Shown piece by piece: positions 30,976 to 53,733 of a DNA stretch of 64,000 nucleotides. Both the position numbers and the translations under genes were made by a program. A model generated the notes under the pieces. That model saw nothing but the letters and a program-made list of their open reading frames with translations, searched no databases and was not told where the DNA came from. Location: positions 310,001 to 374,000 of the forward strand of contig NZ_ATUV01000001.1 of NCBI RefSeq assembly GCF_000420385.1. Reading direction: 5' to 3'. Position 1 is the stretch's first letter. The number at the start of each line of letters is the position of its first letter. This DNA is from Hippea alviniae EP5-r (GTDB lineage: Bacteria > Campylobacterota_A > Desulfurellia > Desulfurellales > Hippeaceae).

Positions 30976-31051
30976 TGGAGCCAGCGATAGGACTCGAACC
31001 TACGACCTGCTGATTACGAATCAGCTGCTCTACCACCTGAGCTACGCTGGC
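30976..31051 (-). tRNA. tRNA-Thr (anticodon CGT)
   Basis: A 76-base cloverleaf on the minus strand: acceptor GCCAGCG pairs with CGCTGGC, anticodon stem GCTGA/TCAGC with loop TTCGTAA (anticodon CGT), T arm GTAGG-TTCGAGT-CCTAT, encoded CCA. It reads ACG threonine codons. Confidence 0.96.
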
Positions 31052-31062
31052 ACCGTTTAAGG

Positions 31063-31090
31063 ATTTTAGTGAAAAGGTTTTGTTTGTCAA
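31063..31090 (-). promoter_or_regulatory. σ70-type promoter of tRNA-Thr (and possibly gpmA)
   Basis: Minus-strand TTGACA (31085-31090) and TAAAAT (31063-31068) are 16 bases apart, 12 bases ahead of the tRNA. Confidence 0.8.
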
Positions 31091-49565: not shown

Positions 49566-49597
49566 GCAGGCCGAGTTTTCGGTCTGCTCTATTTTTT
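49566..49597 (+). terminator. intrinsic terminator after lysS
   Basis: GCAGGCCGA and TCGGTCTGC form a 9-bp stem (one G-T), followed by TCTATTTTTT. It is oriented for lysS; the trkH stop lies in the T run. Confidence 0.85.
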
Positions 49598-51025
49598 CCA
49601 AAAGGCTGTTGAAAAAAGAACAAACACGGTGTAAATCTCAAGCCTTCCCACAAGCATCGCAAAGCTTAAAATCCACTTCACAATCGACGGAAGCCAAGCA
49701 TAGTTATCTGTTGGACCAACCATTCCAAAGCCAGGCCCTATGTTGCCGAGTGTTGCCGCAGATGCAGAAAGAGATGTCAAGATATCAACACCAAAAAGTG
49801 ATACGGCTAAAGCAATTGTTAAAAATGTTGCCATATAAAGAAAGAAAAAACCGGCTGTTGAGTAAATCATGTTTTTTCTTATGTGTTGCCCGTTTAATCT
49901 CAGTGTAAATACTCCTTTTGGGTGAATATTGTATTTAAGCTCGTTTATTGCCTGTTTTGTAAGCGTATATACCCTTATAACTTTTATACTTCCACCTGTT
50001 GAGCCTGCACATCCACCGATAAACATAAGCAGAAATAAAATCATCTGTGCTGCTGGTTTCCACTTCTCGTAATCTGCCGTTACATAGCCCGTTGTTGTCA
50101 TAATTGAAACAACCTGAAATGCACTGAATCTTAAAGAGTTGAAGAAGTCTTTGTAAATAGGCAAGTTGAATATAGTCACAATAAAAACAGCAATGATTAT
50201 GATGAGCGTATAAGCTTTAAGCTCTTCATCTTTCAATGAGCTGAACTTTCCTGTTAGAAGCTTGAAGTGTATGGCAAAGTTTGCACCAGCAATAAACATA
50301 AAAATCGTTATAACCCAATCTATGTAAGCTGAATGAAAAAATGCGACACTTGAGTTTTTTGGTGAGAATCCACCTGTTGCCATTGTTCCAAATGTGTGGG
50401 TTAATGCATCAAATAAGTCCATTCCACCAGCAAGCAGAAGAACCGTCTCGATAGCACTCAGCAAGATATATGTAAACCATAGATACTTTGCCGTCTCAGT
50501 TATGCGTGGTGATATTTTTTCAACAGAAGGGCCAGGTGCTTCAGCTTTTATCAGTTTCATACCGCCAACGCCTAAGATTGGCAGTATGGCAACTGTCAAT
50601 ACAACAATTCCCATTCCACCAAGCCAATGTGTTAAAGAACGCCAGAAGAGAAGAGATTTAGGTAAAGCTTCTATGTCTTCTAAGATCGATGCACCTGTGG
50701 TTGTAAACCCAGACATAGTTTCAAAAAACGCATCTGTGAAGTCTAAGTGGCCTATAAGCATGTATGGAAGACTGCCGAAAGCCGATACGACTATCCAGCT
50801 TAATGTAACAAGCAAAAATCCTTCCTTTCTGTTTAGCTCTTTTGGTGCATCTTTGGTTAAGATAATTCCAGTGAAGCCTAAAATAACACCAAATGCTATA
50901 ATTTCTAAAAACTTAGGCCACTGGTTGTCTTTGTAATAAAACGAGAAAGCCACAGATGAAAGCATAAAGATACTTGTGAGACTTATCAATATACTCAAAA
51001 AGCGAATAATAAGCTTGATTCTCAT
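49589..51025 (-). CDS. trkH: Trk/Ktr potassium uptake protein, membrane subunit
   Basis: The 478-residue protein has the K+ transporter (TrkH/KtrB) pore motifs FDALTHTFGTMATGGFSPKNSS, VSIMTTTGYVTADYE and ATLGNIGPGFGMVGP, four loop segments carrying the selectivity glycines, and about 10 helices. Its length is close to TrkH. It is cotranscribed downstream of trkA (4-base overlap) and fbp. Confidence 0.93.
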   Translation of the reverse strand: MRIKLIIRFLSILISLTSIFMLSSVAFSFYYKDNQWPKFLEIIAFGVILGFTGIILTKDAPKELNRKEGFLLVTLSWIVVSAFGSLPYMLIGHLDFTDAFFETMSGFTTTGASILEDIEALPKSLLFWRSLTHWLGGMGIVVLTVAILPILGVGGMKLIKAEAPGPSVEKISPRITETAKYLWFTYILLSAIETVLLLAGGMDLFDALTHTFGTMATGGFSPKNSSVAFFHSAYIDWVITIFMFIAGANFAIHFKLLTGKFSSLKDEELKAYTLIIIIAVFIVTIFNLPIYKDFFNSLRFSAFQVVSIMTTTGYVTADYEKWKPAAQMILFLLMFIGGCAGSTGGSIKVIRVYTLTKQAINELKYNIHPKGVFTLRLNGQHIRKNMIYSTAGFFFLYMATFLTIALAVSLFGVDILTSLSASAATLGNIGPGFGMVGPTDNYAWLPSIVKWILSFAMLVGRLEIYTVFVLFSTAFWKK

Positions 51026-52359
51026 ATTATCTGTTCAATCTGCGGGATGTGCTCTTTCTTTGTAAAAATAACCATTCTGTCGTTCTCTTTTATTATGAAA
51101 CTGCCGTCTGGGATTATGTTCTGGTTGTCTCTGTTTACTGCGATGATTAGGCTTCCCTTTGGGAGTTTTACATCCTTTATTGCCCTGTTTGAAAGCTTTG
51201 AGTGTTCAGACACGGAAAACTCCAATGCTTCGGCTTCTCCGCCAAAGATTGAATACACACCCAATATTTTGCCCTTTCTTATAAATCTTAAAATGCTGTT
51301 TACTGTCGTTAGTTTTGGACTTATAACGGCGTCAACATTGAGTTTGTTTGCCATCAAAATATAGTTTGTCTTATCAAGCAGAGCAATTGACCTTTTTGTC
51401 CCTATGTTTTTTGCATAAATTGCCGATAGAAGGTTTACTTCTTCGTTGTCTGTTGTTGTTATTACAACATCAAAATCGCCTATGTTTTCTTCTTCAAACA
51501 GTTCTGCATCGTCTGCATATCCGTGAATTACGGTTGCCTTTGGACATAAGTTTGATACGACCTTGCATCTTTCATAATCCTTATCTATTATCTTTATGTT
51601 TCTCTTTTTGCCTTTTAGTCCCTTTGCAGCCATTAAGCCTATGTCTCCTGCGCCGAAAATGGCTATGTCTTTTATCTTGATTGCACCTTTTCCTGCTATC
51701 TCAACTATATCGTTTATGGTCTCTTGTTTTGCCACAATATAGACATAGTCGCCTTCTTTGACGACAGTCTGACCGCCCGGTATTATCAGCTCTTCGTTTT
51801 CACGCTTTATTCCGGCTATTATGAAGTTTCTGTTAATTGAGTTTTTTATCTCAAAAATTGATTTGTCCTTTAATGGTGAGTTGTCGTCGATGTGAATTCC
51901 ACGCATCTGTATGTCTATGCCGAATATTATAACATCGCTTGAAGCACCAAAGTTAACCGTGTTTACAATGGATTTTGCAGCTTCAACTTCAGGGTTTATG
52001 ACAAAGTCTATGCCTATCTTCTTGAATGACGGCATTTGGCTTTCTGAATATTGTATGTTTCTTAATCTGACAATCTTTTTAGAGACATTGAAGTGTTGGG
52101 CTACGACAAAGCAGCTGATCATGTTTACTTCGTCTGAGTTTGTTACGGCTATGAACATGTCTGCTCTGTCGCAGCCTGCTTTTTTTAATGTCTCTATATC
52201 TGTTGCTTCACCCTGAAGAACGAGACAGTCCAAATGCTCGTTGGCAAATGCAGCTTTATCGGCATCTTTCTCTATGATTGAGACATTCTTTTTCTCTTCG
52301 CTTAGCTGTTTGGCTATATGAAAACCAACTCCGCCTGCACCTGCTATTACAACATTCAT
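51022..52359 (-). CDS. trkA: Trk potassium uptake regulator TrkA
   Basis: The 445-residue protein has two RCK/TrkA-N repeats: NVVIAGAGGVGFHIAKQLSEEKKNV and DIAIFGAGDIGLMAAKGLKGKKRN, each with a TrkA-C part. It is cytoplasmic, binds NAD or ATP and gates TrkH. Length equals E. coli TrkA. It follows fbp without a gap and overlaps trkH by 4 bases. Confidence 0.95.
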   Translation of the reverse strand: MNVVIAGAGGVGFHIAKQLSEEKKNVSIIEKDADKAAFANEHLDCLVLQGEATDIETLKKAGCDRADMFIAVTNSDEVNMISCFVVAQHFNVSKKIVRLRNIQYSESQMPSFKKIGIDFVINPEVEAAKSIVNTVNFGASSDVIIFGIDIQMRGIHIDDNSPLKDKSIFEIKNSINRNFIIAGIKRENEELIIPGGQTVVKEGDYVYIVAKQETINDIVEIAGKGAIKIKDIAIFGAGDIGLMAAKGLKGKKRNIKIIDKDYERCKVVSNLCPKATVIHGYADDAELFEEENIGDFDVVITTTDNEEVNLLSAIYAKNIGTKRSIALLDKTNYILMANKLNVDAVISPKLTTVNSILRFIRKGKILGVYSIFGGEAEALEFSVSEHSKLSNRAIKDVKLPKGSLIIAVNRDNQNIIPDGSFIIKENDRMVIFTKKEHIPQIEQII

Positions 52360-53346
52360 TTATCCGTATTTTTCTCTAAACTCTAAGTATTTTTCAACTT
52401 CATATTTGGAGCCGATTATCAACGGAACCCTTTGGTGTAAGCTCTCTGGCTGTATCTCTAAAATTCTCTGTTTTCCATCTGTTGCCATACCACCTGCATT
52501 TTCTATTATGAATGCCATCGGGTTTGCTTCGTATAGGAGTCTTAATTTGCCGTTTTTGTTTTTTGAGTCTTCAGGGTATAAGAAGATACCGCCTTTGAGA
52601 AGGTTTCTGTGGAAGTCTGCAACAAGAGAGCCAATCCATCTGAGCGTGTATTGTCTGTCTGGGTGCTGTTTTATGAAGTTTACAAACTCCTGAATGCCCT
52701 TTGCCCATCTGAAATAGTTCGACTCGTTTATGCTGTAAATCTTTCCGTATTCGGGTATTTTAATATTTGGATGGGAAAGCAAGAACTCACCAACACTTGG
52801 GTCGAGTGTAAATCCGTTTACGCCGTGTCCTGTTGTATAGACAAACATTGTGCTTGAACCATAGATTACATATCCTGCACATACAAGGTTTTTGCCTGCC
52901 TGCATAAGCGACTTCTTGCAGTCTGAATCATCAAGCCTTTTGTATATGCCAAATATCGTTCCGATGCTTACATTGACATCGATGTTGCTTGAACCGTCAA
53001 GTGGATCGAATACGACAGCGTATTTTCCTTCTAAACTTTTATCACTTACAGGCAGCATATCTTCTATCTCTTCACTTGCCATTGCACACACTTTACCTGT
53101 CGGGTCGAGTGCGCTTACAATCTGTTCGTTCGAATACACATCCAACTTCTGCTGCTTTTCTCCGTGCACATTTTCTGTTCCAACTGCGCCAAGTATGTTT
53201 ACAAGCCCTGCTTTGTTTACTTCTCTTGATATGATTTTTGCTGCAAATGCTATCTGTTCCAAGATTAGTGTGAAATCACCAACAGCTTCTGGGTGTTTTC
53301 TCTGCTCTTCCAAGATAAACCTACTTAGGCTTATTGCTTCGGACAT
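52360..53346 (-). CDS. fbp: fructose-1,6-bisphosphatase class I
   Basis: From the ATG at 53346 (behind a GGAGGTG site) the protein has 328 residues, matching class I FBPase. Motifs are the metal site FDPLDGSSNIDVNVSIGTIFGI and the C-terminal GGIFLYPEDSK.KNGKLR segment. It dephosphorylates fructose-1,6-bisphosphate in gluconeogenesis. It opens the fbp-trkA-trkH operon, downstream of the structured RNA at 53419-53550, which may sit in its 5' leader. Confidence 0.96.
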   Translation of the reverse strand: MSEAISLSRFILEEQRKHPEAVGDFTLILEQIAFAAKIISREVNKAGLVNILGAVGTENVHGEKQQKLDVYSNEQIVSALDPTGKVCAMASEEIEDMLPVSDKSLEGKYAVVFDPLDGSSNIDVNVSIGTIFGIYKRLDDSDCKKSLMQAGKNLVCAGYVIYGSSTMFVYTTGHGVNGFTLDPSVGEFLLSHPNIKIPEYGKIYSINESNYFRWAKGIQEFVNFIKQHPDRQYTLRWIGSLVADFHRNLLKGGIFLYPEDSKNKNGKLRLLYEANPMAFIIENAGGMATDGKQRILEIQPESLHQRVPLIIGSKYEVEKYLEFREKYG

Positions 53347-53418
53347 ATTCACCTCCTTCTTTTTTAATTTTAAAAAAATATTATCATTGGAGTTGAGTTT
53401 TATCAAATAAATAAAAAT

Positions 53419-53550
53419 GAGTGTGGGCCTCTCCTTGTCGTGGGCTTGTTGAAGCGGGCTCAAAAGGAGGCCAAAAGAGAGGAAAGTTGAAAAGGTGAGG
53501 CAGTTGGCCTTACGGCCCTATGAAGGCAGGCTTCCACCCCCACACTCGAC
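53419..53550 (-). ncRNA. candidate structured RNA, standalone or leader of fbp
   Basis: This 132-base GC-rich island in an AT-rich gap has minus-strand folds: a 9-bp closing stem GAGTGTGGG/CCCACACTC (53539-53547 with 53419-53427), a hairpin with a GUAA (GNRA) tetraloop GGCC-GTAA-GGCC (53506-53517), an AAGC/GCTT hairpin (53444-53455) enclosed by GGCCTCCTT / AAGGAGAGGCC (53464-53472 with 53426-53436). A promoter lies just upstream at 53556-53583 and a U-rich segment follows. I could not match it to SRP RNA, RNase P, tmRNA or 6S. The rest of the 53347-53769 gap shows only an AT-rich spacer and a promoter for the permease gene. Confidence 0.6.
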
Positions 53551-53555
53551 GGGAA

Positions 53556-53583
53556 AGTTTAATAAAAAGAACTGAAAAGTCAA
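53556..53583 (-). promoter_or_regulatory. σ70-type promoter of the structured RNA / fbp operon
   Basis: Minus-strand TTGACT (53578-53583) and TAAACT (53556-53561) are 16 bases apart, as at the tRNA-fMet and tRNA-Thr promoters. Transcription would start near 53550, at the base of the closing stem. Confidence 0.6.
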
Positions 53584-53733
53584 GTATTTTTATGAAAAAA
53601 TTTTAAAAAACTTATGAAATTAGCTGGCTTTGGTTTGGTGATGAGTTTTTTAGAGATAGTGAATTTTACTTTATTTTCTCTAAAATCCTAAAAGTTCAAT
53701 ATATGAAACAAATGTGAACATTATCATATTCCT

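Follow-up and report, generated by a model that had tools for sequence, protein, structure and literature searches.

Results

A GC-rich island upstream of the fbp–trkA–trkH genes

The window analyzed here is a 64,000-nucleotide stretch of the genome of Hippea alviniae EP5-r, a member of a genus that the NCBI taxonomy places in the Hippeaceae, Campylobacterota. Toward its end, three genes lie one after another on the minus strand: fbp, encoding fructose-1,6-bisphosphatase (52360..53346; PF00316, PF18913), trkA, encoding a potassium uptake regulator (51022..52359; PF02254, PF02080), and trkH, encoding a potassium transporter (49589..51025; PF02386). An earlier sequence-only reading had singled out a GC-rich island of 132 bases in the AT-rich gap before fbp, and the contrast in composition is indeed sharp: the island has a GC content of 56.8%, against 18% and 24% in its flanks, a value reached by only about 1 in 6400 stretches of 132 nt. 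We counted 72 bases from the island to the fbp start codon, where 73 had been given.

Judged from sequence, the island holds a non-coding RNA of ~130–137 nt, read from the minus strand, that is absent from Rfam. Including its U-run, the candidate spans 53412..53548 (core 53419–53548) and matches model R1 with 106.8 bits (E 6e-23). The predicted first base is 53548 or the adjoining base, as CGAG follows the –10 box by 6–7 nt in all genomes compared. The RNA begins with CGAGUGUGGG (53548–53539, minus strand), seven bases past the –10 box, and these first ten bases are 100% identical between genomes (n = 12). It ends with CCCACACUC (53427–53419, minus strand), followed by AUUUUUAU. At the 3′ end, the pairing segment CCCRCACUC and the U-run behind it are near-invariant, with a mean identity of 94% between genomes in the 3′ stem arm. 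The U-rich ending claimed earlier is present at 53418–53411, where it abuts the closing stem and probably marks the 3′ end; 3–7 consecutive T residues occur within 2 nt of that stem in all 12 genomes. We looked for a local terminator hairpin at this tail and found none, so that the RNA's own 3′ end signal, by sequence, is the stem plus the U-run. A small protein encoded by the island was considered and is countered by length differences that are not multiples of three and by the variable interior.

Promoters of the RNA and of fbp

The promoter TTGACT-16-TAAACT proposed by the sequence-only reading was found at 53583–53556 on the minus strand. With a preceding C the element covers 53556..53584, carries a conserved GTTCTTTTTA(T/C) in its spacer, and is present in 12/12 genomes. 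Its mean pairwise identity is 86%, versus 40% in the 60 bases upstream. Both the spacer (16 nt) and the distance from promoter to RNA (6–7 nt) are fixed across genomes; the discriminator sequence varies. Elsewhere in the window, a tRNA gene (30979–31051) is preceded by a minus-strand promoter at 31063–31090 (TTGACA-16-TAAAAT, with CTTTTCA before the –10 box) that resembles the promoter of the RNA, departing from its pattern at 2 positions.

A separate predicted promoter for fbp lies downstream of the RNA (53378..53406, minus strand; TTGATA, a 17-nt spacer, TAATAT, and a TG before the –10 box of the ATGATA type). A –35/–10 pair with a 17-nt spacer was found in this position by pattern in 11 of the 12 genomes; in the twelfth (G001), a weaker promoter, TTTAAA-17-TATATT, was read by eye. 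The fbp promoter starts 8–14 nt after the RNA in most genomes and 37–49 nt after it in G013 and G010, and because this spacing differs between genomes, the RNA and the fbp promoter appear to be separate modules.

Conservation of the structure

Fold energy is unexceptional here (MFE –45.1, z –1.23; 21 of 200 shuffles folded equally well), and the case for an RNA consequently rests on comparison. The 9-bp closing stem claimed earlier is present as an end-to-end helix, P1, formed by GAGUGUGGG (53539..53547) and CCCACACUC (53419..53427). The 5′ arm is invariant in the 12 genomes, and 99% of cells in the 3′ arm are paired. Seven of the nine pairs never vary; one pair changes from U-A to U-G in three genomes, one mismatch occurs in a single genome, and there is no other variation. 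Since P1 is so nearly invariant, its pairing is almost without covariation support. After P1 comes CCUGCC (53525..53530), which belongs to a conserved motif resembling CCU(A/G/U)CC; its CCU is invariant in alignment A2.

The covariation lies in P2, a G/C-rich hairpin of 4–6 bp that reads GGCC-GUAA-GGCC in the window (53506..53517). It was detected independently in each of the 12 genomes with differing sequences, with stems such as GGCC/GGCC, GAACCC/GGGUUC, GCAGG/CCUGC, and AGCAGC/GCUGCU, and its mean hairpin score of 14.3 compares with 9.5 for shuffles (sd 1.0, maximum 11.8). Because MAFFT misaligns P2 within the genus, a second model was used for a structural alignment, in which all 6 modeled P2 pairs have changes on both sides; in this alignment, which is fitted to that structure, the whole-structure covariation score is 0.407 versus a mean of 0.129, exceeding all 500 shuffles, with ≤0.09 for slid registers. 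Hairpins called in each sequence independently agree with the structural alignment. Conservation or compensatory change of the stems in relatives, on which the sequence-only reading had staked its RNA, was thus observed: compensatory change in P2 across the 12 genomes and near-invariance in P1. That reading's GNRA-looped hairpin corresponds to P2 and stands as a hairpin; its GNRA loop is found in only 5/12 genomes.

The rest of the RNA is a pyrimidine-rich, G-poor 3′ domain (53431..53504) whose composition is conserved while its sequence is not: it measures 60–80 nt, with 65–78% C+U and 4–16% G across genomes. No long helix in this domain is conserved across the compared genomes. The nested long hairpin described earlier, CCUCUC/GAGAGG, is clear in three genomes of one genus (G000, G004, and G008) and unsupported in the other genera. 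We also tried pairing the pyrimidine domain with the purines that precede P1, as a third helix; such a helix is weak within the genus and absent from the others.

Distribution and comparison with known RNAs

BLAST found the island within the same genus, and inspection of the fbp genes of 20 relatives yielded five further copies in two other genera. In total, 12/16 Hippeaceae genomes (Hippea and the two other genera) have a full copy. A covariance model built from these 12 genomes scores 89–115 bits in exactly those 12 and ≤24 bits elsewhere (146 genomes); it found no copy in the nine members of the phylum-level group outside this family (12/25 matched). Scanning the genome collection for an exact pattern returned 68 stretches, of which 8, all from the same family, score 103–115 bits and the rest ≤26 bits. 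A search for phage or plasmid copies found none. In three of the four Hippeaceae genomes that lack a full copy, the locus is cut at contig ends: in G002 the RNA itself is cut, with its 5′ half kept, and in G007 and G012 fbp is cut at or near the contig end. In the fourth (G009), fbp lies directly behind another gene and the RNA is absent; the genome is only 82% complete, and the RNA seems to have been genuinely lost. The gene before fbp–trkA–trkH in G009 (contig C20) is shared with the context in another genus, with the RNA and an intervening gene missing, an arrangement that looks like a deletion.

In all 12 genomes, the RNA lies upstream of fbp–trkA–trkH in the same direction. The genes upstream of the RNA are found in at least three arrangements: in the genus of the window they are divergent and of the oppC and ftsW types, and in the other genera they form different co-directional sets.

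Rfam searches of the locus and its relatives at gathering and permissive thresholds gave chance matches only and no family, in keeping with the earlier label of an unassigned structured RNA. The genome's SRP RNA (61 bits), tmRNA (164 bits), and RNase P RNA (265 bits) were each found elsewhere, with no match to any of the three at this locus, and its 6S RNA (72 bits) lies at C1:76624-76807. A tRNA-like gene precedes the SRP RNA gene by ~20 bases (G000:C1 around 993440-993640), and the two perhaps form one transcript. A Y RNA was also considered and set aside, as no Ro60/TROVE protein (PF05731) was detected in the 99.6% complete genome and Rfam gave no match. A literature search on Hippea turned up no account of a comparable regulatory RNA.

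Discussion

A candidate pyrimidine-rich RNA in a genome lacking detectable Hfq

Taken as a whole, the comparison leads us to lean toward a stand-alone sRNA of ~130–137 nt whose pyrimidine domain pairs with purine-rich mRNA sites without Hfq. Transcription would start at CGAG and terminate within the U-run that follows P1, and pairing of its ends would protect the RNA. The mostly unpaired, pyrimidine-rich stretch is probably the working part, the surface that would pair with purine-rich sites, above all the Shine–Dalgarno regions of mRNAs. A profile search of the genome found no Hfq above the cut-off; a sub-threshold Hfq-like match (13.2 bits, G000:C2:116956-117057), in a reading frame of 105 aa, spans only half of the profile and is probably due to chance. 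Campylobacterota have Hfq-independent, C/U-rich antisense sRNAs, for example, RepG of Helicobacter. By description, the Hippeaceae RNA is like these in that its unpaired pyrimidine-rich sequence could pair with purine-rich mRNA in a genome with no recognizable Hfq. It differs in that its tract is a 60- to 80-nt domain closed by an end-to-end stem, whereas that of RepG is a small hairpin loop.

For the antisense mode on its own, the sequence data make a plausible case that falls somewhat short of an even bet. Against the window's 57 translation starts, the pyrimidine domain in this genome reached –19.9 versus –17.6 for shuffles (sd 0.8), figures that derive from a crude gene list in one window. 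With the same window's translation starts used for all genomes, dinucleotide shuffles gave a mild excess of pairing in most of the seven genomes of the genus and none in the other two genera, so that no conserved signal for specific antisense targets is seen in the latter. The fbp gene is not a preferred partner: it ranks 36 of the 57 translation starts, with no special match.

Given that the antisense excess is mild and genus-limited and that fbp is not preferred, a protein that recognizes composition is a serious rival, if a somewhat unlikely one. The closed stem would present the pyrimidine domain to a C/U-rich single-strand binder, and the RNA would sequester or guide a protein of this kind, of which Rho and the cold-shock proteins are examples. 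Conservation of C+U content and G scarcity without conservation of sequence fits such a composition-driven surface, and the invariant first ten bases suggest a sequence-specific contact besides pairing. However, we saw no repeated motif that all three genera conserve, no protein is known to bind the RNA, and Ro60 is absent. The last point bears on an architectural parallel. In Y RNAs and bacterial Yrl RNAs, an end-to-end stem presents a pyrimidine-rich internal loop; the Hippeaceae RNA likewise has an end-to-end stem presenting a pyrimidine-rich interior, but its genome has no detected Ro60/TROVE and it matches no Rfam family.

A stand-alone RNA or a leader of fbp

The sequence-only reading offered two possibilities, a stand-alone small RNA or a 5′ leader of fbp, and we strongly favor the first, because fbp appears to have its own –35/–10 promoter after the RNA in 12/12 genomes and because the RNA ends in a stem and U-run. 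With separate promoters for the RNA and fbp, an independent RNA gene is the simplest reading. The features expected of one are found by sequence: a promoter at a fixed distance, a 3′ end signal, and a structure that is conserved with compensatory changes in P2. What speaks against it is that, wherever the RNA is present, its linkage to fbp–trkA–trkH never breaks; an sRNA that acts freely would have no need of such a tie.

This linkage is also an argument for the competing account, in which the RNA is a cis-acting 5′ leader of fbp–trkA–trkH (riboswitch-like, an attenuator, or protein-responsive) and the U-run behind P1 terminates transcription conditionally, with read-through feeding the operon. 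The constant position in 12/12 genomes despite differing upstream genes is what a leader would show; in G009, the gene adjoining fbp has changed and the RNA is gone; and P1 with the U-run could serve as a terminator. Like leader riboswitches and attenuators, the RNA lies upstream of, and co-directional with, a metabolic operon and ends in a stem and U-run; unlike them, it is followed in every one of the 12 genomes by what appears to be the operon's own promoter. Nor is there a conserved alternative anti-terminator pairing (P1 does not vary, and the interior has diverged) or a match to any known riboswitch. We therefore regard a leader as rather improbable. Since the linkage stays constant while the upstream genes change, some cis effect on fbp is possible, such as read-through into the gene or interference with its promoter.

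Two further explanations fare worse. The near-invariance of the P1 arms, as for a protein site on DNA, could indicate that the inverted repeat GAGTGTGGG/CCCACACTC works as DNA, serving as a bipartite operator or a site for looping, with no RNA involved; the compensatory changes in P2, the promoter at a fixed distance, and the U-run on the RNA strand only make this very doubtful. Hardly credible is a divergent 6S RNA, the second in this genome, with RNA polymerase as its partner: 6S RNA (RF00013) also stands alone, has a promoter of the stable-RNA type, and pairs its 5′ end with its 3′ end, but the true 6S RNA lies elsewhere, RF00013 has no match at this locus up to E 10, and the Hippeaceae RNA is ~130 rather than 180 nt long, with P1 and one small hairpin conserved around a pyrimidine-rich, mostly unpaired interior in place of a long double helix with a central bubble.

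Implications

Returning to the stand-alone sRNA, a broader view is conceivable, if speculative and on the unlikely side: an abundant, lineage-specific stable RNA in which the closed ends hold out a pyrimidine strand of conserved composition that acts as a sponge for an RNA-binding protein (e.g., Rho) or for ribosome-binding sites in general, a global regulator in Hfq-less thermophiles that is tied to a gluconeogenesis and potassium-uptake operon. The candidate adds an RNA family missing from Rfam, with comparative support for its structure and promoter, in a group of thermophilic sulfur reducers. As Hfq was not detected, it would offer a defined case for studying how an sRNA may act without this chaperone.
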